Positions 1 to 60,464 of a DNA stretch of 64,000 bases are shown here, piece by piece. The translations under genes and the position numbers were made by a program. Position 1 is the stretch's first letter. Every line of letters starts with the position of its first letter. The notes beneath the pieces were generated by a model that was given only the letters and a program-made list of their open reading frames with translations, searched no databases and was not told the origin of the DNA. The stretch is from Daphnia pulex. Its lineage: Eukaryota; Arthropoda; Branchiopoda; Diplostraca; Daphniidae. The stretch spans positions 186,001 to 250,000 of the forward strand of contig NC_060021.1 in assembly GCF_021134715.1 (NCBI RefSeq), given 5' to 3'.

Positions 1-860
1 CCCCCTATTGTTTATTCCCCCCCAATTTACTGTACAATATTCAGTGTGTTAAAATAGACGAGAGGTAAAAGACACGGTTTTGTTCGTGTCTAATTTATTC
101 AACTTGGAAACTGTAAGTAAACGGCCCGACACGCCGAACATCCCTATTACATTTTCTACAAAGATCTTGTCACGTCATCGTCACGTGTAGCAAAATTTAA
201 ATTACGTGAAAATAACCTACGAAAATAAACAAGTTGGACGGCAACAGGCTTATCATTCACGGTGAGTAGTTGCAAAGCAAGTTTGACCCGTTTGTGAGCA
301 GGTCGAGCAGCCGAAAAACAAAACAAATTTGTAGTAAACACTCATTTAAATAAATTGCGCAACGCTGTCTTATTATGGAAAAGTCAGACAGACGAATAAT
401 AAAGTGGACGAGTCCTCTCCCTGTCCATTACAAGGCTGAAAATAAAAGCTCTGATAGAAGGGCCGCTTAGCAACTCGCACGAGGGAGAAAAGCCGGAGAG
501 ATTTTTCCGTACACGCGCAAGGAATTCCCAAGAAGCGAAACGTGATCCTCCTTAATTGTTTACTGCTTCTTAGTCAGGTATTATAAATTGAATAGGTCCT
601 TTAGTCCTTGGTCGTTTGCGTCATGAGACGTCCGAAAAACAAACAACAACGTTTTGCCGCTGGCGAGGTTTTGTGTTACGTGCCTGCGGTGGCATCGGCA
701 CTAAGAAGACTAGAGTCTTTATTACTTTCATGCTATGCACAATTCTAGCTCAGTTGTGTTTGCCTAGCAACATAGATAAGATCACTCTGGTGAGTGGTAG
801 AAGTCTTGGTATTCTTTTAACTTGCAAGTTGCATTTGTTTTCTTAGGGTTTACCTTCACA
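1..860. promoter_or_regulatory. Upstream region, putative promoter and 5' UTR of pyruvate carboxylase
   Basis: No convincing protein gene is seen in the first 600 bases. A TATA-like element lies near 580-588 (TATAAATT), about 30 bases before a plausible transcript start near 610. A donor (GTGAGT at 790) and an acceptor (AG at 845-846) define a 57-bp intron in the 5' UTR, so the pyruvate carboxylase start at 861 sits 14 bases inside exon 2. An upstream ATG at 623 opens a short frame that closes near 748, before the intron, and is not in frame with the main protein. The TATA assignment is inference. Confidence 0.4.
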
Positions 861-3800
861 ATGCTGGGAGCTTGTGTATCGAGATGGGGCCTCACTGGCT
901 TGCCCCTGCGTCTTCTGAACAGCAAAACGTGCTGCCCCACCACACAGCTCTACCAATCGCAGGCCAATTATTCACCCAACAAATGCAAAGATGTGGAATA
1001 CAAACCCATCAGATCAGTCCTGGTGGCCAATAGAGGTATATCTGACATTTTATTGTTCAATTTGTCCTTTTTATCAATGCCTTTTATCGAAACAGGTGAA
1101 ATTGCCATCAGAGTGTTTCGTGCTTGCAGCGAGCTAGGCATTCGTTCTGTGGCCATCTACTCAGAGCAGGACAAAATGCAAGTGCACAGGCAAAAGGCAG
1201 ATGAATCTTACCTGGTTGGCAAAGGTCTGGCTCCAGTTGCTGCGTATCTTTCCATTCCGGAAATCATCCGTGTCGCCAAAGAAAACCGAGTCGACGCCAT
1301 CCACCCTGGCTACGGTTTCCTCTCCGAGCGAGCAGATTTCGCACAAGCTTGCGTCGACAGTGGCATCCGTTTTATTGGCCCGTCTCCTCGCGTTGTCCAC
1401 CAAATGGGCGACAAAGTAGCTGCAAGGCAGGCGGCCATCGAAGCCAATGTCCCAATCGTCCCTGGAACTCCAGGTATTCACTTTTCTTTCTTTAATTGTG
1501 CACTGATTTCTGACTTGATTTTCATTTATCACAGGCCCAGTAACGACAACCGAAGAAGCAGTCAACTTTTGCCGAGAATATGGTCTGCCCGTCATCTTCA
1601 AAGCCGCTTACGGTGGTGGCGGCCGCGGTATGCGTGTCGTGCGTAAAATGGAAGAAGTGGAGGAGCTCTTCCAGAGGGCCACATCCGAAGCCCTGGCCGC
1701 TTTCGGCAACGGGGCCATGTTCATCGAGAAGTTTGTCGAGAGACCCAGGCACATTGAAGTGCAGATTCTTGGCGACCGAGCCGGAAACGTTGTCCATCTT
1801 TTCGAACGCGATTGCTCGGTCCAGCGCCGTCACCAGAAGGTGGTGGAAATCGCCCCAGCACCTAATCTCGACCCGGCTGTTCGCGAGCGTATGACCATCG
1901 ATGCCGTTCGACTTTGCCAGCACGTCGGTTACGAAAATGCCGGAACGGTCGAATTTCTGGTTGACGAAGCTGGCCGTCATTACTTTATCGAAGTTAACGC
2001 TCGATTGCAGGTAATTTAGCTCTTGGCTGTTTTGAAATTGAATTTACCAATGGAATTTCCTTTGTTGCAAATTAGGTGGAGCACACTGTGACGGAAGAGG
2101 TGACGGGCATAGACCTTGTCCAGCACCAAGTCAAGATCGCCGAAGGCCTGACTCTACCCGAATTGGGTCTAGATCAGAGCAAAATCAAAATTCAGGGCAG
2201 TGCCATCCAGTGCCGCATGACGACAGAAGATCCGGCTAAAAACTTCCAGCCGGACACTGGCCGCATCGAAGTATTCCGGAGCGGCGAAGGTATGGGCATT
2301 CGTTTGGACAGCGCCTCGGCCTTTGCCGGTGCCATCATCTCGCCCTACTACGACTCGTTGCTGGTCAAAGTCATCGCTCACGCCGGAAATCTGCCGGCCT
2401 CGGCCGCCAAAATGGTCCGAGCTCTGCGGGAATTCCGCGTCCGAGGTGTCAAGACCAATATTCCATTCCTACTCAACGTCTTGGAGAACCAAAAGTTTCT
2501 AACGGGCACCCTGGACACTTACTTTATCGACGAGCATCCCGAGCTGTTCCAGTTTGTTCCGTCACAGAATCGCGCACAAAAGTTGCTCAACTATGTCGGT
2601 GACGTCCTGGTCAACGGCCCGCTCACCCCACTGGGCACCGATCTCAAACCGGCCCACGTGGAACCGCAAGTCCCGGCGGTTGATTCCAGCCGCCAACTGG
2701 GCGGATTCCGCGAAATCATTACGGAGCAAGGCCCGGAAGCCTTCGCCAAAGCCGTCCGCAACCACAAGGGTCTCCTGCTGATGGACACGACTTTCCGTGA
2801 CGCCCACCAGTCTCTGCTGGCCACCCGAGTCCGCACTCACGACCTGCTCAAAGTCTCGCCGTACGTGGCCCAGAATTTCTCGTCGCTCTACAGTCTGGAG
2901 AATTGGGGTGGTGCCACGTTCGACGTGGCCATGCGGTTCCTGCACGAGTGCCCGTGGGAGCGATTGGAGGAGATGCGACGCGTCATGCCAAACATTCCAT
3001 TCCAGATGTTGTTGCGCGGGGCCAACGCCGTCGGCTACACCAGTTACCCGGACAATGTCGTCTACAAGTTTTGCGAACTGGCCGTTCAAACAGGTACACT
3101 GGACAGATGAAACACAAGTTGATTGAAACTCTTATTAAATTTGTTTTAATTTTACTTGACGACAGGAATGGACATTTTCCGAGTCTTTGATTCCCTGAAT
3201 TATCTGCCCAATATGATGTTGGGCATTGATGCCGTAGGCAAGGCCGGCGGTGTAGTGGAAGCGGCCATTTCTTACTCTGGTGATATTTCGGACCCGTCAA
3301 GGACCAAGTACACCCTGCCTTATTATTTGGATCTGGCCGACGAGTTGGTCAAGGCCGGCACTCACGTCCTCTGCATCAAGGACATGGCTGGGCTCCTCAA
3401 GCCTCGGGCGGCGACTATGCTGATTGACGGCATCCGCCAACGTCATCCGGACGTTCCCATCCACGTCCACACGCACGACACTTCTGGCGCCGGAGTCGCC
3501 TCGATGCTGGCCGCTGCTCAAGCCGGAGCTGACGTTGTCGATGTGGCTGTCGATTCCATGTCGGGCATGACCAGCCAGCCGTCCATGGGCGCCGTTGTGG
3601 CCAGTCTGCAGGGCTCCGAGTTGGACACGGGCATTTCACTCGAGTCCGTCAGCGACTATTCAGCCTATTGGGAGCAGGCCCGCACGCTCTACGCTCCGTT
3701 TGAATGTTGCGTCACCATGAAGTCGGGCAACGCCGACGTCTATCTCAACGAGATCCCAGGCGGCCAGTACACCAATTTGCAGTTCCAGGCCTATTCTCTC

Positions 3801-4826
3801 GGACTGGGCAATCAATTTGAGGACGTCAAGAAAGCCTACAGGGAGGCCAATCAACTCCTTGGCGACATTATCAAAGTCACTCCGTCCAGCAAAACTGTCG
3901 GAGACTTGGCCCAGTTTATGGTCCAAAATAAGTTATCTGGCCAGGACGTCCTGGATCGCGCCGAGGAGCTCAGCTTCCCCAAATCGGTGGTTGAATTCAT
4001 GCAGGGATATTTGGGCATTCCGTACGGTGGATTCCCCGAACCGTTCCGCACTCGAGTTCTCAAAGGTATGCCCAAGGTCGAGGGCCGTCCAGGAGCCTCA
4101 ATGCCGTCCATGGACCTGGACAAATTAAAGGAAGATTTGATTGAAGCTCATGGCAATCAGGTACTACCCATTAATTCTATATATTTCTAAATTTAAAATT
4201 TTGTTGCTGTTCGTCACAGATCCGCGATGTTGACGTCATGTCGGCCGCCATGTACCCGTCCGTCTGCAAAGAATATCTCGAGTTCCGCTCCAAGTACGGT
4301 CCGGTCGACAAATTCGCAACGCGCATTTTCCTCACGGGCCCCAAAGTCGGCGAGGAATTTGAGGTGACCATTGAGAAGGGCAAGACGTTGCACATCAAAA
4401 CTTTGGCCATGGCCGAAGATTTGACCAAAACTGGCGACCGCGAAGTTTTCTTCGAGCTCAACGGCCAATTGCGCTCCGTTTTCATCCGTGACAATACGGC
4501 GGCCAAGGAACTGCACATTCATCCCAAGGCGGAGAAAGGCGTCAAAGGCTCAGTGGGAGCTCCAATGCCTGGAACGGTGATTGATCTCAGAGTGAAAGCC
4601 GGCGATAAAGTCGAAAAGGGACAACCACTGGTTGTTTTATCGGCCATGAAAATGGAAATGGTCGTCCAGTCTCCTTGCACAGGTAATTTTGATAAGATAA
4701 ATCATTAAAAGAATAGAAAATCAATTTTTACTGTTTGTTCCAGGAACCGTGAAAACGGTGGACATCGCCAAGGATATGAAACTTGAAGGCGACGACTTGC
4801 TCCTGACCATCGAAGAGTCGAAATAA
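861..4826 (+). CDS. PC: Pyruvate carboxylase, mitochondrial
   Basis: Biotin enzyme that carboxylates pyruvate to oxaloacetate in the mitochondrial matrix (anaplerosis, gluconeogenesis). Coding exons: 861-1035, 1096-1473, 1535-2010, 2076-3093, 3166-4160, 4220-4682, 4744-4826, giving 1,195 residues, the normal animal length. The first ~50 residues are basic and hydroxylated, as expected for a mitochondrial presequence. The biotin carboxylase module follows ([17 protein letters not shown]; glycine-rich ATP loop [30 protein letters not shown]). The carboxyltransferase module begins near [17 protein letters not shown], and the C-terminal biotinyl domain carries AMKMEM with the biotin lysine near residue 1157. 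The start is the first ATG in frame after the 5' UTR intron. All junctions keep phase, so the gene looks functional. Confidence 0.97.
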
Positions 4827-29941: not shown

Positions 29942-30739
29942 TTAGTTGATTGCCGCTGAAATAAGCCATTCAAGAAACACACACGACACAGCTAAAAGCA
30001 AAGCGGTACAAACGTAGAGCCCATAGATAATGACGCTGTTGACAAAGATCTCATTCATTTCTTGTTCCTCATAATAATCGAACGTTAACAGAAGAATGTC
30101 AAATTGGAAGTCATTGCCGTTTTCATCTTTTGGTTTCTGCTCGGATGTTACAACGGTGACTGGTCCTTTACAGATGGGACATGTTGTCTTGACCTTAAGC
30201 CAACTCCAGAGGCAACTGCAACAAAAAGTATGGCCGCATTGAGGCCGCGACGCGTTGACATGCGGACTTAAACAAATTGAGCACACTCCGTCGTCAAAAA
30301 TCGCGAACGTTTGGTCTTCCGTGTCGTCATCTTTTACATTTCTGGTCATGTAATACTGTTTACTCTTGAAGTAGTATTCCTTTATCAGAAAAGGCCAGGC
30401 GAAACACATGTGTAGGATGTAAGGATTGAGAGTTAGAGGCAAGTTGATTCCTTGGAAGAAATTAAGAGCTTGGATTAAGGGCGAGAGGCCAGTTAAAAAT
30501 GAGGAAATTCCAAAATGGGCGAGATAGATCCAACTGTAGTCGTTAAACACCCCTCGAATTACTGGCCGACTTGGTGGTACGATGTTGAAAATCAAAACAA
30601 GAATCGAAAAAGCAAAGATGCTGGTAATCAAGTCGATAAAGGAACCCTCGTAGAATCCATGCAATCCATGCACCCAAAAGACTCCGGCGATAATCCCAAT
30701 GAAGATCTCGGTCACGAACGATGTAATTATCTTAATCAT
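29942..30739 (-). CDS. Intronless RING-finger membrane protein, putative E3 ligase
   Basis: 265 residues from the ATG at 30739. The N-terminal half holds several hydrophobic segments (IITSFVTEIFIGIIAGVFWV; ITSIFAFSILVLIFNIV; a third around the YILHMCFAWPFLI block). A C3HC4 RING at about residues 150-190 reads CSICLSP..., RPQCGHTFCCSCLWSW, TTCPICK. One more membrane segment closes the C-terminus. The order of TM segments and RING resembles RNF170 and related ER ligases, but similarity outside the RING is not evident, so no symbol is given. Single-exon structure is unusual here and may reflect retroposition. Confidence 0.75.
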   Translation of the reverse strand: MIKIITSFVTEIFIGIIAGVFWVHGLHGFYEGSFIDLITSIFAFSILVLIFNIVPPSRPVIRGVFNDYSWIYLAHFGISSFLTGLSPLIQALNFFQGINLPLTLNPYILHMCFAWPFLIKEYYFKSKQYYMTRNVKDDDTEDQTFAIFDDGVCSICLSPHVNASRPQCGHTFCCSCLWSWLKVKTTCPICKGPVTVVTSEQKPKDENGNDFQFDILLLTFDYYEEQEMNEIFVNSVIIYGLYVCTALLLAVSCVFLEWLISAAIN

Positions 30740-31045
30740 TTTGGTTTGTAAGTGAATGGTCAAGATGTGGTGTTATTTTCGTCACATCGCTGTTCCCTTA
30801 ATATAGACATTTCGTTGCACTGCTAGAGGAGCAAATCTCCAATGTTCTGATTTTTCGTAATTTACGTTCAAAATCTCGAATAGCAATTAGCAAGAGATGA
30901 CATTTTCAGTAAATTAGTAATTTTACGCATATCATTCAAAATTAATCACACCCAATTTAAACAAAATTATAAATCTAAATGGAAAAAAACCTACAGTTAT
31001 AGTTATACCACACCACGTAACGGAAGGGATCTTGTGCGTGGACCA
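30740..31045. promoter_or_regulatory. Shared upstream region of the RING gene and a possible small ORF
   Basis: 306 bases, AT-rich, between the minus-strand RING gene and a plus-strand small ORF. No clear TATA box. Confidence 0.3.
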
Positions 31046-34590: not shown

Positions 34591-37500
34591 TTAGCTAGCC
34601 TTGTGAAAGTGAACCGTTACTCGATGTCTAGAGAGCTTGTCTCTCCGAGTAAAGGTCTTATCGCATTGATCACAATCTAGTCGTTCTCCGGTGTGAATTA
34701 CCAGGTGGCGTTTTAATTTGTCTCTGGTGACAAAAGTCTGTCCACAATCGCCACATCTAAAAGCTCTTGTTCTTGAGTGAATAAGTTGGTGGCGATTTAA
34801 TTTGTCTCTGGTGAAAAAAGTCTGTCCACATTCTTCACATCTAAAAGCTCTTGTACCTGAGTGAGTTAGCTGATGGCGATCGAGTCGGTACTTGTCTCTG
34901 AAGGATTTGGAGCAAAACCCACACTCGAAGGGGGGCTCTCCGGAATGAATTTTACGCCGATGAGTTTTCAACCGATTGCCATCGTAAAAGGCACGTCCAC
35001 ATTTCCGACTTTGAAATGAACGGTGGCGTGGAGGCGGCGATGAAGTTTCTGTGGGATTTGAAGTGTGTCGTTGGCTTCTTCTCAACTTTTTGGGTGTGCA
35101 TACTTCTGTCACTGGCCCATCGTTCGTGTCGACAACATCAAATTGAACCGACGAAGGCTCGTCATCTAGATTCGGAAGCATTCGAGCCGGAACGGTTTCG
35201 GATCCGCCACCGAAATTGGAAAATGGTGACATGAGGCCTACTGAATGGGTGGAGTCTGAGCCAATTTTCTGGTGTAAGCCACCGACGGAAACCAGCATGT
35301 GTCCATCCTGTCAAATAAAATATTCGTAATTAGTTCAGAAAAAAAATAAGCGTCGAACCTTTTCAAAAGAAAAGACTCGAAACGAACGAAAAAGGCCAAC
35401 AATAACCGACCTTGATATTCGGAATGTCCATCTCGTTTAGCATATTCATGGGCACGATTTCTGTGATGGGTGCAGTAGGCATCGTCGGTAAAACAGCTAA
35501 ACTGAAATCAACACCAGGCACTTGTATTAGCGGGAGTTGTCTTTCTGTCTTACTGCTGATCGATTTGACGCGTTCTTGTAAGTCAATGCGCAACTTTTTC
35601 ACTTGCCATAGCTCCGATTGTCTGGCATGAAATGATTTCAAGACTATTTCATAATCACTATTGTTCTTCTCTATTTTGCAAAATGCCTTTTTTCCAATTC
35701 CGCCAAAGGATGAATGAACGCTGAATCCATTTCTTGGTCCTGATTTGTCGTCGAGTAATTTGCCAAACTGACGAGCTTCATTGATGCCACGAAATTTTGA
35801 ATAGATCATACTTTCTTCCGACGAACGAAGAAATGTTTCTACTTCGGGATAGGCAGGAAATGAAGCTTGGGGCATACTCCAGTCGACAGCTGGTGGATTC
35901 TTTGTCGGACTTGACTCTTCTATCCAGTGATCCAAGATGCGATTAAAAACGGTAAGACCAAGAGGGGCTTCAACAAGAGTTTCTTGAAGGGCTTCATTGC
36001 TGACTACAAACTGCACAAAGAGATTTCCTTCATCGGAAGGAAAGGATTTACAAATTTGAACTTTAAAGCTTTCCCAGCAACGTTCGTCGTTGAGCCACAA
36101 AAGGCAATCAAAAATCTTCTTTATTACTCCATCTCCCATGGAGTTAACCAAATGGACAAAGTCTTGCTGAAAAAAGAGTTGACAGGCATTACGATACCAG
36201 TCAATGCAGAGAGGTAATTGCTTGATGTCAGAAAGTGCAGATAAGCCAAGATTAAAAACAAGTTCCACTAGTTGTGGGGTCGATATCTTTTTCATCAGCT
36301 GCTGTAGAACACTAGAAGTAATCAATCGATTATTCTCTGCATCAGAGAAATGATTTTTTTCGACGTCGACGAAGAATTGGACACAGTCGACGAGCAGAGA
36401 CGTACTGTTTGAAAGGTCGCTAGAGTTCAATAGTTGTTCCGAGATCCCCAACAAAACGAGATCGCTACAAGTTTTCAATACCATCAACTTGGAACTGGAA
36501 TTCAAATTCGCCCATATGTCAGACGTTGACATGAGCATTCGAAATAGCTTCTGTTTTTCCTGGTGGGCCCAGCTTCCGGATATTTCATTAACACAGACGT
36601 GATGAAGAAGCGTATGCGTTTGGGACTCGTCGCCTGCCTGTAGGAGCCACCTCACCATTTCCAGGATCACTTCTCGGCGTGGCATGGCAGTTGACTTCTC
36701 CTCCACAAGAGGCAAAAATGATTTGCAGATGAGAGGAATCATGACGGACTGGCCCAGTTCAGAAGTGGTAGCCAACTGATAGATGACGGGCGAAGTAATC
36801 AGTTTTTCGATCAAATCCTTCTTCATCAGGATAAATGTTTGACTTTCCGATACAGTCGGCTCTCGGCACACATTAGAGATGAAAGTTTCAAGCCACTGGG
36901 CATTTCCAAGACGAAGAAAACAGCTCACCAAGTCCACGGCGAAACACTTGACGGACGGCGCGTAAATGTTGCAAGTAATCGCCAAAATCTTCTGGCATAA
37001 ACCATGTAGAATGAATTGACAGGACCGGTGCTTCTTCGAATAATGTGAGCAGAATCTGGTTTCAAAATCGAGCACAAATCGACACTGCATGGATAACTGG
37101 AGCTTGGAAAAGAATTGAAAAAATGAGGCGATTCTCTCTCTGCTGGCGGTTTCAGGATTCATCTCCAACGCCACAATCATGTCCATATAGGATTCTACAT
37201 GGGACTGCTTTGACTGCAAAATAAAATATGATTCAAACGAAATTACTTTATATGAAATTATATTATTAGATACTTGTGAAGCTTTAAGCAAGTCGATATC
37301 AGTGAATGAGGAAGATACAGCCTCTCCAATCATTATAGCTCCTTCCTTGAAATTGAGATCAAGAAAACATTTTCCCAGCTTGACAATCGGGATTAACTGT
37401 TTGGCAATAATCCGGCTTGAAGAGATAATTCGCTTAATTAATTCAGCGACATCGTCCCAATCTAAAAATAAAATAAATCTACAGTAAAATTTATCCCAAA

Positions 37501-39260
37501 TTTACATAATGAAGAAACAAAGGCTTATTACCACTGACTTGGCGCACAAAATCGGCACACACGAATTCCGCAATTGTCTGAGCAACATCCTCGGTTTGAA
37601 TTCCTTCAAACTTCTCAATGCCGTGCCAGGACTCTTCATAAAAATTGGAGCAGACCAGTTTCAAGAGATTGATGCCCTCTTCACGAGCCTTCAAGGTGAT
37701 GCAGAAACGGAACAATCTTAACGTCAGTTCACCATTTTCCATTCCAGCCAACGTCCAGACTTTTTCAGGTTCGGCGCAACAAAACGAAATAAGCTGCCGT
37801 AATTCGTTTTTGGCTTGTTGTCGCGTTTCTTCCTTCCAGTTGGGCGCTGACACCAATGATTTGCTCATCCGGATGAGAAGTGACTGGAGACCATATCGGC
37901 AGTACATCTGGAAAGAATGATGTTTGGGCCAAATTACTAGTACTCCGTGATGTTCAGTATTTACTCCTCGATTTTCCATTTTCTTATCTTGATCCAGTTG
38001 GGTTCTACTCGATGAAAAACGATCTTCAATCCGTCCAACAAAATGCTGGTTCGAATTCAATTCGATGCTCAAGTTTCTAACCACATCATCAGAATCTATC
38101 CAACGCAATTTTCCAACAGAATTAAAGTCGACGGAATCTTTGTCGTAAATTTGTTGAATTGAATGTGTGGCCATCGCGAGGTGAATATCGAGGAAACCGC
38201 TGCTTTTGAGTAGTTCGGCCGCTTTTCTATCTTGACTGCAAAGGAATTCAAATGCAAAATTTTCAATATCGTATTTGTCGTGTAGAACGAAGAACAAAAT
38301 ATTTTCTTTCAATTCCTTCTCGGAGTACAGGTAATCGTGCTGTGTGTTATGAGCAGAAAGTTCGATCTCTTCAGACTCGGAGTCTTCGCTATCTTCCGAA
38401 TCCAGGGAGTCTTCCTGCTTGACTTGAATCAGCCACGGTTTAAGTACTTCTTTAACTTGTTTCAGAGAGGTAAGAAACACCGGAAAATCCTGGGGAATTC
38501 TGATCTTGGCATTTGTCCAAATGAGATCAAAAACTAGAGTTAATTGGTATCCTTGCGTTACGGGTTCCGTAAAATATTCGCAACAGTCGAAAAAGGTAGT
38601 GATGTAAAAGTCTCGGTCACTGCTTGCATGGTTTTCAAAGGGTTGATTTCTTCCTTTATATTCGACACTGAAACACCCACCTTGGTGCCCTCCTTCAACT
38701 GGCACTTGAAGGATCGCAGTACCAAATTTACCATCAACACCACAGCAACCAGGGTTTTTTATTTTGTTGCACGATTGACCACCATGTTTGTAAAGCACAA
38801 GTTTTTGAAGCTGTGCTTTGACATTCATCAGTTTAGTGGGCAGTCGAAAGAAGCAGCTGATCAAGGATGACAAACCGAGGCCTTCATAGGTTTTATCACA
38901 TATTTCTGATGCACTGATCTCCCACTCGTGTCTTTCAGAAGGATCAACATGTCTGTTGTATCTCGCACTGCCAGCTGTTGATTTATTGGCAACCTCTTTC
39001 AGCATCCCGATATTCTAGATGGAATAAGCAGTAAGAAATAGGGTTCCAGTTGCTAAAACATAATTTTTTTTTCATACCTTATAAGAAACTGGTATCTTGA
39101 CATCTAGTTCTTTGAAAGCTATAATGTTCAAAGTGAATTGTTCCGCTGTCAATTGCTTTCCACAAGCAAAATCAACCAAACTACCTTGGTTTTCAAAATT
39201 CACAGCTTTTGTTAATAGTTTCTTATTAACAAAGCAGCACTCTTCATTTGAAGAAGCCAT
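34591..39260 (-). CDS. 2OG-Fe(II)-oxygenase-like / C2H2 zinc-finger fusion protein
   Basis: Minus-strand exons: 39078-39260, 37532-39014, 37274-37461, 35411-37213, 34591-35307; 1,457 residues, all junctions in phase. Exon 2 holds a 2OG-oxygenase-like module: FGTAILQVPVEGGHQGGCFSVEYKGR, then FFDCCEYFTEPVTQGYQLTLVFDL. In active relatives the second part reads DCEH..PV..GYR..L; here His is Tyr and Arg is Gln, so iron and 2OG binding are probably lost. A long helical region follows, then FPAYPEVETFLRSSEESM, also seen in that protein family. The last exon encodes five C2H2 fingers (the first lacks its first Cys), e.g. CEECGQTFFTRDKLNRHQLIH-type repeats. Exon 4 joins exon 5 at phase 0 (AAG/GAT). 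The alternative is two adjacent genes; the ZF exon has a clean acceptor and no obvious promoter. Confidence 0.7.
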
Positions 39261-39422: not shown

Positions 39423-40060
39423 GGATCATGCTCGTGGCTCCCGCTGCGGCGCTGCGATCGACTTGGAGGAGACTTTTCTGTGAATTTTCCTTTATCCCTA
39501 CTGATTGGAGTCTTCACACACCTTAATTTTAAAAAATTACTATTTGTGCTACATTTTTACTTTTCCCTGTGTAATTTTGTTTGTGATTTCTTGATTATGT
39601 AATAAAAATGTCAAATAGATTGGTTTATTTGTTGGTGCCTTAAAAAATTGGTTTTTTAGACACCCTTTCTCGCTTATTTTGTGACGATTTATAGTGAATC
39701 GTGAAACGCTGGACTAATAGACTATTCATTTGGCGCCTAAATTGTCCTTCTTTCCCAACGGCACAAGAATCCATCGTTTCACGATTCATTATAAATCGTC
39801 ACAAAATAAGCGAGAAAGGGTGTCTAAAAAACCAATTTTTTAAGGCACCAACAAATAAACCAATCTATTTGACATTTTTATTACATAATCAAGAAATCAC
39901 AAACAAAATTACACAGGAAAAAGTAAAAATGTAGCACAAATAGTAATTTTTTAAAATTAAGGTGTGTGAAGACTCCAATCAGTAGGGATAAAGGAAAATT
40001 CACAGAAAAGTCTCCTCCAAGTCGATCGCAGCGCCGCAGCGGGAGCCACGAGCATGATCC
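39423..40060. mobile_element. Large fold-back element: 291-bp inverted arms, 56-bp loop
   Basis: Bases 39423-39713 and 39770-40060 are near-perfect reverse complements; only a few differences are seen, all near the loop. Outside the perfect arms a diverged inverted similarity continues (ACCACAGACTAAG at 39384 versus CTTAGTCTGTGGT at 40107-40119), so the original element was longer. It lies 160 bases upstream of the 2OG-like/zinc-finger gene. It has no transposase. Confidence 0.85.
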
Positions 40061-40180
40061 AGACGGTTCCTCTCAGCCCTATAGGGACGATCGTGGTCTT
40101 TTCCTCTTAGTCTGTGGTATATGGCACGCCGAAACCGACACAAAAAAAAAATGTTTAAAAAAAAAAAAAAAAATTGACTA

Positions 40181-40194
40181 GCGCCATCTAGCGG
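40181..40194 (-). promoter_or_regulatory. CTCF-like motif in the left arm
   Basis: GCGCCATCTAGCGG; reverse complement CCGCTAGATGGCGC fits CCDSNAGRKGGCDS at all 14 positions. Confidence 0.45.
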
Positions 40195-40356
40195 CCAAAA
40201 AAACAACTACGTGCAAATTTAGCGCTCTTCACACAATTCACTCTGTGTAATCACTATCTGAGTATCTGTAACACCTTTATTGGTGATTGTTTCACATTTC
40301 ATACGTGTCTTGCTTGTCGTACAAAATTTCTTTTTCAGCTATATAAGTGAAGTAAA

Positions 40357-41215
40357 ATGGTTAAGCAGATTACCCGGGAGGAATTACAAAATCTTTTAGG
40401 TAAATAAATAATGTAGGCTCCTAGGTAGTGTTTAGTGTCACCTTACCAATCCTATTACGAAGTTAAAGAAGAAGAAACCTACAACAGGCATTAGGGTTAG
40501 CCAATAGTTACGTGGCGCTAAATTGATAGACGACTAATTAAGTAGTAAGCGTTGGATGGTTCCAATAAATTTGTTGTTGCGGATGTTGAAAGTCAGCTCC
40601 ATTCGTAACAAAATAAGCCCCGTAAAGTTCACGATGCTGGAAAGATTGCGATGCCGAAAGATTAGCCTGTGCCAATTAATGACGACAGTTCAGTATGGCT
40701 AGACTAGAAGACAGCTTGTCTGAGTCAGATAGCGCTTAATAATTTAAACTTGAGAGAATAACGTGATATGCATCCTCACATTTCTTGGGGCCCATCATCA
40801 TGCGTCGGTAAACTAAGCTACTCTGTAATTTACTTGGTCTAAAAAGTAGAAAATTGATCGTTCCAACAGACTGGAGTAGCATTTTTTGTGTGAGTTCTGG
40901 CTGTCACGAACGTAGAAAGCAAATAAGGGTGACATCTAAATAACGTTTATGAGTTCAAAAGTTTAGATTGTAAAGTTAATCACAAACACAAGTCGTGTTT
41001 TAAGTAAATAACGACACGCGCGATTGCACTTGATAAAAGACCGTCCTTCTGTTCATTCTGTTCATATTACAGAACCGATCTGGCAAGGGACGAATGGCCA
41101 TCGTAATATATCTGGCTATCAGGGCTCAGATTCAATAACGAAGCGTGAGGTTGAGCAATCGATGAAGACCTCCTTGTTCCCGTTCCAGACGGCCCTGGAC
41201 GGCCCAGTTACCTGA
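40357..41215 (+). CDS. Two-exon ORF inside the inner TIR element
   Basis: Exon 1 40357-40399 (MVKQITREELQNLL plus one base) ends before GTAAAT. Exon 2 41073-41215 follows CATATTACAG and continues in frame to a TGA, giving 61 residues (EPIWQGTNGHRNISGY...). A TATATAAG box lies 10 bases upstream of the ATG. The ORF may be the first and last exons of a deleted transposase or a captured host fragment. Internal exons between 40400 and 41072 cannot be excluded. No family recognised. Confidence 0.35.
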
Positions 41216-41418
41216 ATGCCAGGATTTAATTTCTTAAATCTTGATTCGTATCTAGATTGTTTTTCAAGAAGCTGGATTAAAAGAAATTTTGTACGACAAG
41301 CAAGACACGTATGAAATGTGAAACAATCACCAATAAAGGTGTTACAGATACTCAGATAGTGATTACACAGAGTGAATTGTGTGAAGAGCGCTAAATTTGC
41401 ACGTAGTTGTTTTTTTGG

Positions 41419-41432
41419 CCGCTAGATGGCGC
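41419..41432 (+). promoter_or_regulatory. CTCF-like motif in the right arm
   Basis: CCGCTAGATGGCGC, inverted partner of the site at 40181, so the element carries two identical sites in opposite orientation. Confidence 0.45.
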
Positions 41433-41496
41433 TAGTAGATTCTTTTTTTTTTTTTTTTTTAACATTTTTTTTTTGTGTCGGTTTCGGCGTGCCATA

Positions 41497-52753: not shown

Positions 52754-55700
52754 ATGCCACGACGGAGAGGATCGACCAACGCTGGACGTCGTACCACCAG
52801 TAAGTTTTTTTAAATTATCTATTTCCAACGTCACCTATCGAATCTATTTGCAATGACGTCACTTGAAATTGAACTAGTAGACGCTTTAAAGAATTTCTGG
52901 AAACTTGGTTTCAACCAGTTCAATCGTTAACTTTTTGTGTATATTTATTTTTATTTTGAGAAGAGTCGCCACGATGAGTCGTGTATGTGAATGGTTGAAT
53001 TCCCACCCACCCACCCACCTCCTACAAGGTTGGCACAGTGCCGGCCACCAGACCCTCTCCAGACTGCATCCTCCTCCCACCCTCGGCATCACCCACCGTC
53101 GTTTACTTGTCCGCTTTTTTTATTCCTGTTTTTCTCACGAAAAATTGATAACGATTAGTCCCGATAACATTTTTAATGCAACTAGTATGAAAAATAATTT
53201 TTAGTTGAAAATAATATTTAAAAAATGGAATAGATTCGAGTTGAGGAATCCCCCGCAGTTTTTCGGTTGGTTGGTGGCAGCACTGGGCGTCCTTGAACGA
53301 GTACGTCCGAACCCATAGACAAAAATTGTCGTTGGACGACGACGACAAGGAAACGCACACAACTTGTATTTTGTGTGTCGGGGAATTCAAGTGCCCTGAA
53401 TTTATAATCAGAATGATTTCTCCTTAAAACTCGTGCGGTCAGACATTAAAAAAAAGATTGGGCGCCAGACGAAATTGGCAGTTGTCAAAATGGCGCCGAC
53501 GACGTACGACGGAGAATGTGCGGGCAAATGGCCAAAACGTCGAAAAAGATTGTCGTCGTTTGCTACTCTCAACTTGTGAGAAAAGAAAAGCCCCAACATG
53601 GGGTTTCTCATATTATTATTTTGTAGGCCTCCTTTTTCTACGAAATTCCGTCCAGCACACACACACACACCTGATGTCGGAATGTTGTGGAAAGAAGAAG
53701 GAAGAAAAATAAAAAAGATAAAGGAAAAAAGATGGCGGTAGCCACCAGGCCACCACGTTAGGGGGGGATAGCCCGGGTGGGTTCGCGCAAGGGTTTCCCT
53801 CCCACCACACCAGCCTTGCCTTCAACCTTGACAGCCTCCGGGGGGAATTGGACTCTGTTCTCTCATTGGTTTAAAACGATCAGCAAAAGATTGGGAGGAA
53901 TGCGCGCGCCCTCCCCTTTTTCCCGCCGACAGCCACGTCTCCCCCCCCCCATTCACCGTGGTGGCGCGCGATGTTGCCACTTTGCCCGTAATTTTAATTT
54001 CAAAAAAAGATGACGGAATTGATAATGAAAAATCAATCACACACACACACATACGCCGAGGTCATTTTATATAATCTGTAAACGACATTTCTCTCATATC
54101 ATCTTGACGCAAGTTATTGGACTTTGATTGCATAGGAAAAGTTAAAAGCCGCTGCTGTTTTGGTTTGGCTGGGGTCGCCCCTAGTCTATTTTCTGGTTCT
54201 AACGGATCCGTCCAAAAGTGTCTGGTTTTGGCTCGTATATTTTAGGGCTTTTGTGTTGTATTCAATGGAGAATGAGGAGGAGGGTGGTAGAAGGAGGAGG
54301 TTGTTGTGTGACTACATTCCATTTTGACTGCTGTTCTCCGCAGACCCGCCATTGAGGCGCCAACGCGTTACCCTGCCGACAGTCTCATCTTCTTTTCCCT
54401 CAAAAAATATTATTAGATTTAAATTAATTCATAATCAAACACAATCGGGTTATTATATTATTTGGTCGTTTTATTTTATTTAAAAAAAGAACAAATGGCG
54501 TAGTTGTAACACACACAAGTGGGTGAATTTAGTCATCCGGTCAAATACCTTGAGGGCATTAGCCAGAAGGAGAAAGGGGCCACATCGTCGTCAACTCTGT
54601 AAATAAACAAAGTGCAACTGCGGATGGAGGAATGGAATGTGACCTTGCCAAACAGGTCATCCGGCAAGAGCCCCCGTTGTCAAGGTTTCCTTCTCACCTC
54701 AAGGCTCTTTTCACCTGTCTCTCCTCTTTTATCCCCCCCCCCATTCTTATACCCACCACCACTTGATGATTCAATTCAATGGGATTTCCCTCACACACTA
54801 AGAATTAACATTTTTCCTATTTTATTTTGGACATTCTCGCAGTTGACGATGGACGTTGCAACGGCAATAATAAGAAACCCATGGCGCCTATCCGAGCTGC
54901 CAAAGTCACGGCACCCGCCGTCTCACCGTCACAATCAGGTACAATCATTTGAAAATCTAAATTCCATTATCAGCTCTTATCTAATCTTTAATTCTTTTAT
55001 TTTTAAATATAAAGTCAACGAAGCTACTCCGGAAGCCACTCAATCCAGCGATCTTGGCTATTTGCACAAGAAATTCAAAAAAGTAGCCGCCACTTTTTCA
55101 ACTACTCCGGAACCGGCTCTTCCGGTGGCGGCTGATCCCCCGACGGATGAATCATGTGCTGTTGTTGTTGTTGATCCAGCCAAAAAGGAGGAACAACAAC
55201 CCGATAGCAATGGCTCGTCGAAATCTTCCAGTAAAGGTGGCCGGTATGTTTGTCACTACTGCCAACACGCCTGCGCAAAGCCCAGCGTCCTGGAAAAACA
55301 CATCCGGGCGCACACAAACGAACGGCCCTACCCGTGCGTTCCGTGCGGATTTGCTTTCAAAACCAAAAGTAACCTCTACAAACACTGCAAGTCACGCACA
55401 CACGTTCTCAAATTGGAAGAAAACGGAACGGCCCATCCGCAGTTAACTGGATCAGCCGGAATCATCATCGATCCGGTCGAAGGCGGAAGTGACGATACTT
55501 CAGACGACAATGTTATGCTCGACGACAGTGACGAAGGAGAGCCACTGGTTGTTGTTGTTCCGCCACAGCCGGCCGAAATCATCGTGTCCGTTTCATCCGC
55601 ACCATCCACTCCGGAGAAATTCAAAACGCCGTACAAACCCAAATTTCATAATTTAAAAAGTTCAGACGACATTTTAGAAACTCCACCGACCACCGATGAA

Positions 55701-58700
55701 GGACGGCCCAGCCCTGGATTCCTGCACGAAAGGATCAGTCAAATCATCAGCAAGAATCAAGCCATTGTCGAAACGCTGGATCCGATTTGGCCCAGGCGAT
55801 ATGTCCGCCAATCCAGTCGAGACAATAAAGAAACGGCCAAAAGTCCCCGGCCGGACATTGTCATTTCATCTCCATCAATCAAGAAATCCGGTCTAGCCGG
55901 AAGAGAAAGAAGTTGCAGTTTAAGTTTGGTTCCGCATGCGGATCAGACGACCGACTCGATGGTTCTGGCCGTCCCCCCGTCTGTTGCTCCATCGTCTACC
56001 CACCGACTGTTGCAAGAGGATGAAAATCAGAGGAAGAGATGCTACTCGGAAGGTCCAGCCGTCACGGAAATTCGCCATTCCGTCCGGAATTTATTGCAAC
56101 AGTCTCCCAAGCCGCCGCGAACGGACGTTTTCAATCCGCAAAATCCGGAAGGTTCCATCATTAAGGATATTTTGTTAAAAAGTCGCGGATTACTTCCGGC
56201 CAACTGCGAGGCTAAAGAATCGGCGGTGGCCGTAGTCGATCCGCCAACGAAAATGTCATCGTCATTCACCGTGAGTGCTCTACTGAATCCGTCCACGACC
56301 CGTGCCAAACCCACGGTCGAATTTCCCCATCCACATATCAGTTTAGAACCGGCGGATGATCCGGCAGAACGGCCGCCATCAAAACGATCCAAGATTTCAG
56401 ACGTTCCGCAATCCGCTCCATTTCCACGTCCGCCAGTCGATCCTGAAATGATCCGATCAACATCGTCGTCTTCTTTTGTCTCCGATCGAATCCGGACGTC
56501 GCTTCCGCTTTTCGGAGGTGAAGTGGAGATCCATGATGGTCCCCAGAGGACAGTGTTGCGAATCGATCCAGCGGGTTATGTTGAATCTAATCGATCCAAC
56601 GGCCAATCTACTGCAACCACCGAGTCGCCGTCCTCGGTTGTCGTGACAAAAGTGTCGAATTTAAATAATTCCGGTGGTTTGTTTCGTCTGCAACCGCAGG
56701 AATCCCGCATTTCCGTTTTCCCCGTCATGAAAACCGCCGAAACCAAATCCGGCGGTGATCCAGCCCGTGGCGTCATCATTCATCAACCTTCCGTGCCTTA
56801 TATTCCGGGAATTCCCGGCCCCTACAGTTCAAGCGGATGGCTTCCGGCTTCCACCATGACGTCTGTCACCGTTTCCTACACCACCACGGCGTGTACCAGC
56901 CAATCAACAACAACATCACAACGTCCGGTTCCATCGATTACGGTGCATCCGCCAGCCGCTAGTCTCCTACAACCTCCGCACCCGGAAGAGCGAACGGATA
57001 GCGGATTCGACGATGAAGATCCATCCACTCAGGCGTCACCCAAATTCCTTCGCCCCAATTCTTTATCGTTGCAGCCGGGCACGTTCAATTTGAAAAAGAG
57101 CAACATGGCCGGCCTGGATCCCCAGAGCGGACAACCCAACATGCTGTGCGTTTCGGGAGCCGGAATGACGCTCATCAGTCCCGAGACGCCTCGTCCGCGC
57201 AAGCTATTTCGCCAGTTATATCTCAACGGCCACGCCTACACTTATTTGGGCCTCAAATGCTCGACCAGGGTCTATTTTTGTTGCCTGTCCCGAGCCCAGC
57301 CCATGTACGTCCCGCATCATCCCAAATTGTCCATGTATTCGCAATGGAAGACGAGAGCTCCAGCCTCAGCCGGCCCGCCGGGATTGGAAGCCTCCAGCCC
57401 GACCCAAACCATGTCCCTTTACGATTCCAGACAACGCCCGACGACTTGTACGACGGCCCAATCGACCGATCACGGCCGGATGATTTTGACTCATTCGTCT
57501 TATTGGACCAATCGCGACAGACCCACAACGACGCATTTCAAATTGCAAGTGGCACCCGCCGCCCAGGACGTCGTTCACATTGAAATTCCTCCTGCTCAAT
57601 CGACTCCGGAAGAATCCCGTCCGCCGGATCAAGTCATCAGTCCAACGATCCAGACGAAACCGGTTCAACCCAAACGAGTGCGGATCTTTGCCGGCGGCTA
57701 CAAATCCACCGAAGATTACACGTACGTGAGAGGTCGAGGGCGAGGCCGTTACGTGTGCGAAGAATGCGGAATCCGCTGTAAGAAGCCATCCATGTTGAAG
57801 AAACACATCCGCACGCACACGGACCTGCGCCCTTACACTTGCCGCCAATGCAATTTCAGTTTCAAAACCAAAGGCAATTTGACCAAACACATGAAATCAA
57901 AAGCTCATCACAAAAAGTGCACCGAGCTGGGCATCGTGCCCGTCCCTACCACCGTCGACGAGGCCAACATTGACGAGGACAGTCTGGCCCGGCAGGAAAC
58001 GCTCAAAAAGATGAAACTGGCCGGCGGGTCCGGCAATGAAGGCGATTCCGATTTAGACGACGATGAAGATGAAGATGAAGATGACGAGGAAGATGAAGAA
58101 ATTGAAGGTGAAGAGGAGGAAGATGAAACGGAAGATGATCCGCCAGTGACGACTAAATTATTGCCAACTGGACAATTTGAAGATGCCACCACAGCAGCCG
58201 AACCGGTTCGTGAAGAACGTGAGCAAGAAGTGGCCAGGAGTTTACTGGATTTAGGTGTTATTGCTCCAGCTGGATGTAAACCCACGACATACCCTTACGC
58301 CAGCCATTTCCATCCGCCGGAAGAGGAACAACAACCTTCGGTTGAAATGAAGGAAGAGCCTCCAGCGCCCGTTTGTAAACAACAGCCGATGGATTTATCC
58401 ACTTCAACCGCTGCTTCATCGGCTCTTTTGGCTTCCATCTATTCGCCCATCGTGAGCGAAACGGCCGCTCGTCGATTATCTCCCGAAAATTGCGTCCAGC
58501 CGGCCACCAGCGGCATGCTGCAAGCCTACCTGACGGAAAAAGCTTTGAAGGAGGGACTGATGAAACGTCACCAGGTCAAATTGATGACTCCGCCCTCAGT
58601 CGTCGTGGAAAATCCCGTCGTCACTTTATTCCCGACTCAATCCAAATCCAGCCGCTCGGAATTCGTGGTGCCTCTGTCGTCCACTTGTCCGGCGGCCATT

Positions 58701-60464
58701 CCGACCTCGGTGACGGCCTACAAATTGACAGACGACGGCAAAACGGCGTGCAGCATTTGCAACAAAGTTTTCACGAAACCATCGCAACTGCGATTGCACA
58801 TCAACATCCATTATTTTGAGCGGCCGTTTCGGTGCGAGGCCTGCGCCGTTTCCTTCCGCACCAAGGGCCACCTGCAGAAGCACAAACGATCCGTGACTCA
58901 TTTCAATAAAGTCAACATGAATTTGACTTTCGGCACGCCCAGCACGGAGAATCCTCGACCGTTTAAATGTTCCGATTGCATGATCGCCTTCCGCATTCAC
59001 GGCCATCTGGCCAAACATCTCCGCTCCAAAATGCACATCATGAAACTGGAATGCCTGGGCAAATTGCCCTTTGGCACTTATGCCGAAATGGAACGATCGG
59101 GAATCAATCTCAACGAAATTGACACGACCGATTGCCACAATTCACTCGAAAGTCTCCAATCATTGGCCCATCGTCTCTACAAACAAGATCCATCCAAAAT
59201 CCAGCAATGGCAACAAGAGGTTTCTATCTATTTAAATTCCATTTGAAACTTTTAAAATTAATTCATTTTTGATGACTTAATTAGGCTCAAGTGGTAGCCG
59301 AGGCTAATTTGAGGGAACGGACAATTAGCGAATCGTCGGAAGAATTTTCGGATGTTGCGGATGATGAGCTGGATGAAGATGGGGAAGATAGCGACGGCCT
59401 TCCGGATGGAGCCGGTGTCGAAGAAGCTCCTCCTCCACGAAAATTGACACCAGTTGAAACACTTCCGGCACAGCCAGAAATGAGCCATCCGCCTCGTGCT
59501 GCTGCCGTGTCTCCAGACGCCAGGAAAGCTCCGCCTCCGCCACCAGCCATGTATTGTTCCGCTTGTGGAGATTCGTGCGTTTCCATGGAAGCGTTCCAAT
59601 CGCACGTCATGGAAAAACATCGGCCTCTGTCACCACCTACGACTAGGACACCCTTCAAGGCTTCTCCTCCCGCAACGGCTCCCGAGTCTCCCGCCAAATT
59701 GGCACCACCGTCCAACATCCAGCCAGACATTGGCAGGTATATCTTGTTGCACTCGACTTGGTTTATTCTTTTTACAAATCTCATTTACATTTATAAAAGG
59801 GTCGTCAATTTGGCTGTGGAATCGAGACGATCTCCATCCCGCGTGATGGAGACGGGCCCCAAGCCTGGCCCACCCTGGAACCGTGGTCCAGGTGACCTGC
59901 AATATGCACAACCCCGTGGTGGCTTTTACAGTGGCCCATCGCATTCATCTTCGACCATGTGGCCACAACCGCGACAGCCAACGATTGGTGACCTCATGAG
60001 CCTGGGCAATCCGCTGTCGGCTATTCCACCTCAGTGGCATCAGGATCCAGCCGCCATGGCCTGGATCGCATCCCGCCACATGATGCTGCCGGGTCATCCG
60101 CCCACTTATACCACTCCGCACCACTCTGGCGGCCATCACACCACCAACGGAGTAGCCATGCAGCCGCGCCTCTACAGTCCCACCTCCTCGAGTTCTTCCA
60201 TCGCAGCCAACGACGTCGACGTCGTTTTTCCCTGCGAACTTTGTGGAAAATCTTTCAATGCCAAAGACACACTCCGACAGGTATATTAACATACAAGAAA
60301 TTGAATCATCTCATCAATTAATACATTTTTTTATTTTTTATTTCTAGCACATGTTGGCTCACGCTCAACCGCGACCGTTCGTTTGTGAGTTTTGCGACGC
60401 TGGGTTCACGACTCAGAAGCACCTTGAATCGCATCTGGTTCTGCATCGGCCTCGTACGTCCTGA
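52754..60464 (+). CDS. shn: Schnurri/HIVEP-type large zinc-finger transcription factor
   Basis: Nuclear C2H2 factor that partners with Smads in BMP/Dpp transcriptional repression. Exons: 52754-52799, 54843-54938, 55015-59219, 59285-59736, 59800-60280, 60348-60464; 1,798 residues. The first intron is 2.04 kb, long for this window. Fingers: pair 1 (about 127-180; YVCHYCQHACAKPSVLEKH), pair 2 (about 959-1012; YVCEECGIRCKKPSMLKKH) followed by a long Asp/Glu run (about 1063-1090), a triple set (about 1292-1389) with MNLTFGTPSTENPRPFKCSD and LGKLPFGTYAEMERSGINLN, a single finger (about 1540-1560) and a last pair ending 6 residues before the stop. The acidic run after a ZAS finger pair and the triple set are diagnostic for Schnurri. 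A different first exon is possible, as exon 3 has an in-frame ATG-free start. Confidence 0.93.
52800..54842 (+). other. Large first intron of Schnurri
   Basis: GTAAGT donor at 52800 and TTCTCGCAG acceptor at 54842. Contains CCCA repeats (53003-53022) and CA runs (53657-53670, 54038-54050). A plausible site for enhancers; no gene seen. Confidence 0.7.

Follow-up and report, generated by a model that had tools for sequence, protein, structure and literature searches.

In plants, REF6 and ELF6 carry a JmjC domain together with C-terminal C2H2 zinc fingers that target them to DNA, and REF6 is described as an active histone demethylase (PMC7105484). The chromatin protein JARID2 is reported to combine an inactive JmjC domain with ARID, C5HC2 and putative DNA-binding domains, and to recruit partners (PMC11241480). 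The N-terminal domain of the vaccinia virus protein C16 is presented as a PHD2-like fold whose cofactor residues are unconserved and which serves as a binding module (PMC9674614), and a 2026 survey of arthropod chimeras derived from horizontal gene transfer (HGT) counts 104 genes in which foreign sequence is fused with animal sequence, among them a C2H2 case in a mosquito and two Daphnia clusters (PMC13389597). Here I describe a gene of Daphnia pulex, on the minus strand at positions 34591-39260 of a 64,000-nucleotide stretch of DNA (positions 186,001 to 250,000 of contig NC_060021.1, assembly GCF_021134715.1; hereafter the window, in whose numbering all coordinates are given). It is predicted to join a catalytically dead 2-oxoglutarate (2OG)-Fe(II) oxygenase domain, of the prolyl 4-hydroxylase (P4H) type, to an array of C2H2 fingers, and its product is probably a nuclear DNA-binding adaptor built on that dead scaffold.

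The likeness to REF6 and ELF6 lies in the order of the parts, with a 2OG-oxygenase fold on the N-terminal side and zinc fingers at the C-terminus; however, REF6 as described has an active JmjC domain, whereas the domain found here is of P4H type and devoid of an active site. With JARID2 it shares a dead 2OG-oxygenase fold lying beside putative DNA-binding parts, but where that protein is described with JmjC, ARID and C5HC2, the Daphnia protein has a P4H-like domain and C2H2 fingers. C16 likewise has a PHD2-like fold lacking the cofactor residues, but it is viral, another of its domains blocks Ku, and its description includes no zinc fingers. The HGT chimeras are similar in that foreign-type sequence is fused to animal domains; the main text of that survey contains none of the words 'oxygenase', 'hydroxylase', 'dioxygenase', '2OG' and 'P4Hc', and the main text of a paper on Daphnia C2H2 genes (PMC2889900) contains neither 'hydroxylase' nor 'oxygenase'. 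In the open-licence literature, no paper was found that describes a dead P4H-type domain combined with C2H2 fingers. An earlier note on this DNA, made from its letters alone, had called the architecture new. In view of what is described for REF6/ELF6 and JARID2 this is too strong: the parts are of known kinds, and what is new is that a dead P4H-type domain is paired with C2H2 fingers, if the two are transcribed as one.

Gene model and ancestry of the N-terminal part

Five exons join into a coding sequence of 4,374 nt, that is 1,457 codons and a stop. Exon 1 (39078..39260, with the ATG at 39260) encodes residues 1–61, and exon 2 (37532..39014) residues 62–555, comprising the degenerate oxygenase domain, predicted to be a P4H-like double-stranded beta-helix, then a 'WP' module and helices. 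Exon 3 (37274..37461) spans residues 556–618, exon 4 (35411..37213) residues 619–1219, a long stretch that looks helical by eye followed by a linker-like one, and exon 5 (34591..35307) residues 1220–1457 and the stop, with a linker, a basic stretch and the C2H2 array. The four introns measure 63, 70, 60 and 103 bp, all are bounded by GT-AG, and their phases, in the order of the exons, are 0, 1, 0 and 0. These introns and the uninterrupted coding sequence agree with the earlier note, which had read five exons joining in phase into 1,457 residues. Junctions 1/2 and 2/3 are independently supported, since homology matches cross them: the blastp alignment with P0005, a relative from Streptomyces, begins at residue 30, in exon 1, and continues into exon 2, and the second domain matched by the hidden Markov model (HMM) of the family described below (residues 416–567) extends 12 residues beyond junction 2/3. 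No homology support was found for junctions 3/4 and 4/5. The window contains no N, and there is therefore no marked assembly gap at the junction. The gene model is confirmed as a reading of the DNA, with the splicing of its exons in RNA as a prediction.

Searched against plasmids by tblastn, exon 2 gave three matches in all (E 0.02–0.04), each annotated as a 2OG-Fe(II) oxygenase, and the two that were translated (H1 and H2; 761 and 802 residues) both match PF13640 above the cut-off. In a two-sequence blastp search the 802-residue relative aligns with residues 30–226 of the Daphnia protein at 24% identity (E 4e-9). Bacterial and archaeal genomes were scanned with two patterns, of which FYAD adjoins the distal iron-binding His; 159 relatives were confirmed, and the best 80 were kept. 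Together with two plasmid loci this makes 82 loci, all of them with a matching open reading frame (ORF), which reaches at least 500 residues in 79. A family profile was built from the 49 relatives left once near-copies of more than 75% identity were dropped, and 48 of these, excluding a 334-residue piece (L022), were aligned with exon 2 (alignment A2).

The family HMM matches the Daphnia protein with 65.6 bits (E 1.9e-22, in a one-sequence search), chiefly in two domains spanning residues 54–294 (44.7 bits) and 416–567 (15.7 bits). The best score for shuffled sequences was 1.5 (132 rows reported for 300 shuffles), and among 375 ORFs of the window the exon 2 ORF scored 65.0 and the runner-up 2.4. 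Alignment to the bacterial family with hhalign covers residues 55–520 with a Prob of 98.4. When the A2 profile was searched against the PDB, it reached a PKHD-type hydroxylase at E 0.028, and an unrelated enzyme at E 0.15.

Guided by the 48 bacterial rows, AlphaFold predicts a strand-rich core, with a mean predicted local distance difference test (pLDDT) of 73.6 and a predicted TM-score (pTM) of 0.61. This model depends on the relatives, since pLDDT drops to 35.9 for the same sequence without an alignment. A Foldseek search of the PDB found 83 chains at E ≤ 0.001, the top matches being PiuC (E 2.4e-5, TM-score by target (TMt) 0.39) and PHD2 (E 4.0e-5, TMt 0.45). Among the 50 PDB matches listed, 48 are PHD, P4H or PiuC-type oxygenases, the P. 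putida P4H included, and the remaining two are 6n1f, another 2OG-Fe(II) oxygenase, and vaccinia C16, at rank 19. The 50 matches listed from a viral library are mainly giant-virus, phage and some poxvirus proteins of Fe2OG type, several of them nameless, with one TMt of 0.61. Exon 2 is predicted to adopt the double-stranded beta-helix of the PHD2/P4H kind, and the outcome that the earlier note had named as refuting, an exon 2 lacking a structural match to this fold, did not arise.

Several results weigh against this reading. As single sequences, exon 2 and residues 1–260 matched no oxygenase family in Pfam, searches of NCBIfam with single exons gave no oxygenase match, and phmmer found no match to exon 2 in the PDB. 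Among the 50 PDB matches listed, the TM-scores by target are modest (0.36–0.49, with root-mean-square deviations of 4.4–15.1), the mean pLDDT of the model is just 73.6, and a C-terminal domain typical of the bacterial relatives (see below) reached no significant score in the Daphnia protein by hhalign or hmmsearch. The missed Pfam and NCBIfam matches are not read as the absence of an oxygenase domain, because the relatives' profile scores strongly. Profile HMM, hhalign and predicted fold agree with the 2OG-Fe(II) oxygenase type proposed in the earlier note, and by this comparison the N-terminal part descends from 2OG-Fe(II) oxygenases and is P4H-like. The oxygenase family is also present in fungi and oomycetes. 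No phage match to exon 2 was obtained by tblastn, and scans of viral contigs with exon 2 and with the bacterial pair gave no relatives.

The bacterial long 2OG-Fe(II) oxygenases (e.g. WP_173948947.1 and WP_331748791.1; PF13640) are homologous to the Daphnia protein over approximately residues 30–520, that is the N-terminal segment, the 2OG domain, the WP module and the helices. They are however mostly ∼730–860 residues long, as compared to 1,457, and the C2H2 pattern C..C-12-H-3..5-H occurs in none of 79, whereas the Daphnia protein has four. A motif C.C..C..L or C...C..C lies within the last 160 residues of 74 of these 79 relatives (L003-L084, at least 500 residues), possibly as the metal site of an uncharacterised C-terminal domain; it was not detected in the Daphnia protein.

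For exon 4 there was no Pfam match above cut-off, no plasmid match and no viral-contig relative, and its best PDB match was no better than E 1.5. Residues 1056–1143 (35639..35902) were considered as what is left of the DW...Cys domain at the C-terminus of the bacterial relatives, with the Cys lost. In each of two runs hhalign gives one local, colinear placement there (E 0.16 with Prob 0.4 %, and E 0.29 with Prob 0.2 %), which is not significant, and hmmsearch is discordant, its best matches being non-significant and located outside this segment. The identification was not accepted, and the segment is kept as a tentative candidate only.

Catalytic residues of the oxygenase domain

The ligand columns hold H, D, H and R in all 48 aligned bacterial rows, whereas the Daphnia protein retains none of the four, with K145, K147, Y208 and Q218 in their place. 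This count is not that of a random sample, because the relatives are drawn from the best 80 of 159 and the search pattern FYAD adjoins the distal His. At the place of the HxD iron motif, residues 139–155 (GGQSCNKIKNPGCCGVD; 38733..38783), D155, the last residue, is the sole H, D or E, and the attribution of K145 and K147 to the HxD columns hinges on where the gaps are placed. The distal iron-binding His corresponds to Tyr208, within FFDCCEYF (residues 202–209; 38571..38594), and the 2OG-binding Arg to Gln218 (38544..38546). The loss itself is independent of the alignment, because the segments concerned hold no candidate residues: residues 139–154 are free of H, D and E, and residues 200–225 of H and R. 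In contrast to the ligands, fold-related residues common to the bacterial family are kept, for example D85, R89, W92, Y136, C206 and W423.

The motifs on which the earlier note based its domain call, GG.F.V..KGR and FF.CCEYF.EPV.QGYQLTL, are both present, and Tyr208 and Gln218 do stand in the columns of the metal-binding His and the 2OG-binding Arg, as it had claimed. Its call of an inactive enzyme holds but was understated, as the HxD motif, which it did not mention, is lost as well. Its suggestion that the domain senses is unsupported, since the residues that bind iron and 2OG are gone. Judged by these residues, the N-terminal domain is a pseudoenzyme, unable to bind Fe(II) and 2OG in the usual way.

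Residues 143, 151, 152, 175 and 205, which lie within the dead pocket or next to it, are cysteines, at positions for which the bacterial relatives most often have another residue or a gap.

Zinc-finger exon, fusion junction and neighbouring features

Exon 5 matches Pfam zf-C2H2 (PF00096) at E 1.1e-23, in five stretches, and contains four complete C2H2 motifs (C-X2-C-X12-H-X3-5-H), starting at residues 1348, 1376, 1404 and 1431. The five fingers of the earlier note are therefore four complete ones (finger 2, residues 1348–1368, 34861..34923; finger 3, residues 1376–1396, 34777..34839; finger 4, residues 1404–1424, 34693..34755; finger 5, residues 1431–1452, 34609..34674) and a degenerate finger 1 (residues 1319–1340, 34945..35010), in which the first Cys is replaced by Ser1319 and which the pattern does not match. 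Ahead of the fingers, the basic stretch PKKLRRSQR (residues 1291–1299; 35068..35094) resembles a nuclear localisation signal and may act as one. In the PDB the fingers are matched best by DNA-binding C2H2 proteins, ZNF568, PRDM9, Aart and CTCF among them. The nuclear location and the DNA or RNA binding proposed in the earlier note are putative. Helix positions 2, 3 and 6 are D, K and R in each of fingers 3–5, which, under the zinc-finger recognition code, would favour G-rich triplets. No JmjC or JmjN domain was found in Pfam at E ≤ 10 for residues 1–260, exon 2 or exon 4, nor among the 25 of 55 exon 5 matches listed.

Finger 3 is a tandem copy of finger 4: the 84-nt units are 87% identical, with 11 nucleotide differences, and none of the seven codons that differ is synonymous. 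Positive selection on these duplicated fingers was considered, but is unsupported by the NG86 estimates of the nonsynonymous (dN 0.13) and synonymous (dS 0.19) rates. Elsewhere in the window, a plus-strand ORF of 1,547 codons (54603-59243), Schnurri/HIVEP-like by eye, also has C2H2 fingers, and matches those of exon 5 weakly.

Intron 4 (35308..35410; 103 bp, GT...AG) is the proposed fusion junction, and the phase-0 junction that the earlier note had placed ahead of the zinc-finger exon is present in the DNA. As the training set for a codon score, 1,883 codons were taken from window ORFs judged by eye to be genes. At both borders the true frame outscores the others, with 0.025 over the final 150 nt of exon 4 and 0.193 over the opening 150 nt of exon 5, and the score drops to -0.572 for the intron, read in the exon 4 frame. 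With the splice sites, the phase, the 103-bp gap and the shared strand, this signal argues that the oxygenase part and the finger exon are likely to be one fused gene. Some observations speak for caution here. The true frame is best in nine of the 12 exon segments scored (one of them nested within another), but not in the middle of exon 4 (-0.192, against -0.162 antisense), in residues 1270–1319 (-0.079, against -0.009 in another frame) or in the finger region (-0.168, against -0.154 and -0.159 antisense). The usual splice donor is GTA or GTG, and that of intron 4, AAG|GTCGGT, has an atypical GTC; furthermore, the exon 4 frame stays open for 15 codons past this donor before a stop.

Because of these 15 codons, a finger-less isoform can be envisaged. 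Read-through past exon 4 would produce a protein of 1,234 residues, and alternative 3' ends would then give finger-less and fingered forms, with the oxygenase-like part also acting outside the nucleus. I regard this as possible though not favoured, as no AATAAA was seen by eye in intron 4; it is in any case compatible with a fused gene encoding an adaptor. The same 15 codons, along with an early ATG in exon 5 (DGHM), would also suit two adjacent genes, one for a degenerate oxygenase that ends just past exon 4 (VGYCWPFSFVSSLFF-stop), the other a short C2H2 gene with its own start in exon 5. This appears unlikely: a second promoter would have to sit within the 103-bp gap or in exon 4, a phase-0 GT-AG pair exists, the codon signal is in frame for 150 nt on each side and drops in between, and the intron, again by eye, offers no AATAAA.

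Upstream of the gene, starting ∼160 bp from its ATG, lies a near-perfect foldback (39423-40060), with arms of 291 nt that are 99% complementary and 56 nt apart, and with no other copy in the window. Near it, an element at 40120-41496 has long inverted ends (218 nt, ∼97% alike), and may be a non-autonomous DNA transposon. Judged by eye, plus-strand exons at 801-4705 resemble pyruvate carboxylase, and a minus-strand ORF at 29945-30772 has a RING-type motif and hydrophobic segments.

Proposed function and its implications

That the gene is a pseudogene in decay, or a fusion carried along passively without a function, would fit with the loss of all catalytic residues, the one broken finger, the amino-acid change in each of the seven differing codons of fingers 3 and 4, and the three of 12 segments in which the true frame is not the best. 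However, 1,457 codons are open without a frameshift, four fingers retain every ligand, and the fold-related family residues persist, so that I consider such decay quite improbable. That the domain still works as an oxygenase or a sensor, with the pocket cysteines forming a substitute metal site, is hardly credible, as the whole facial triad (3/3) and the 2OG-binding Arg are gone, and this fold is not known to have such cysteine-site chemistry.

The probable role is that of a catalytically inactive adaptor. One gene, its exons 4 and 5 joined by splicing, would encode a 1,457-residue protein, directed to the nucleus if the basic stretch acts as it appears. Its N-terminal part derives from a long P4H-type 2OG-Fe(II) oxygenase, with 2OG domain, WP module and helices, and its C-terminal exon would contribute the C2H2 array with four complete fingers, which may dock onto specific DNA. 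I conjecture that the dead beta-helix, together with the long scaffold that follows it, binds a protein partner, such that partner recruitment would be the job of the dead domain.

As to its origin, a more tentative proposal, and one that I hold to be doubtful, is a lineage-restricted chimera: a long 2OG oxygenase of bacterial or fungal type may have entered a crustacean genome, lost catalysis and joined an animal zinc-finger exon, giving a new sequence-specific chromatin adaptor with a dead P4H docking module.

If the fusion is transcribed, a P4H-type pseudoenzyme would be tied directly to a DNA-reading array. The protein would then be like REF6 in architecture and like JARID2 in logic, by way of a different branch of the oxygenase superfamily. 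If this is true, the gene would offer a test of how gene regulation reuses a dead oxygenase fold, and of whether regulators arise from arthropod fusions between foreign-type and animal domains.

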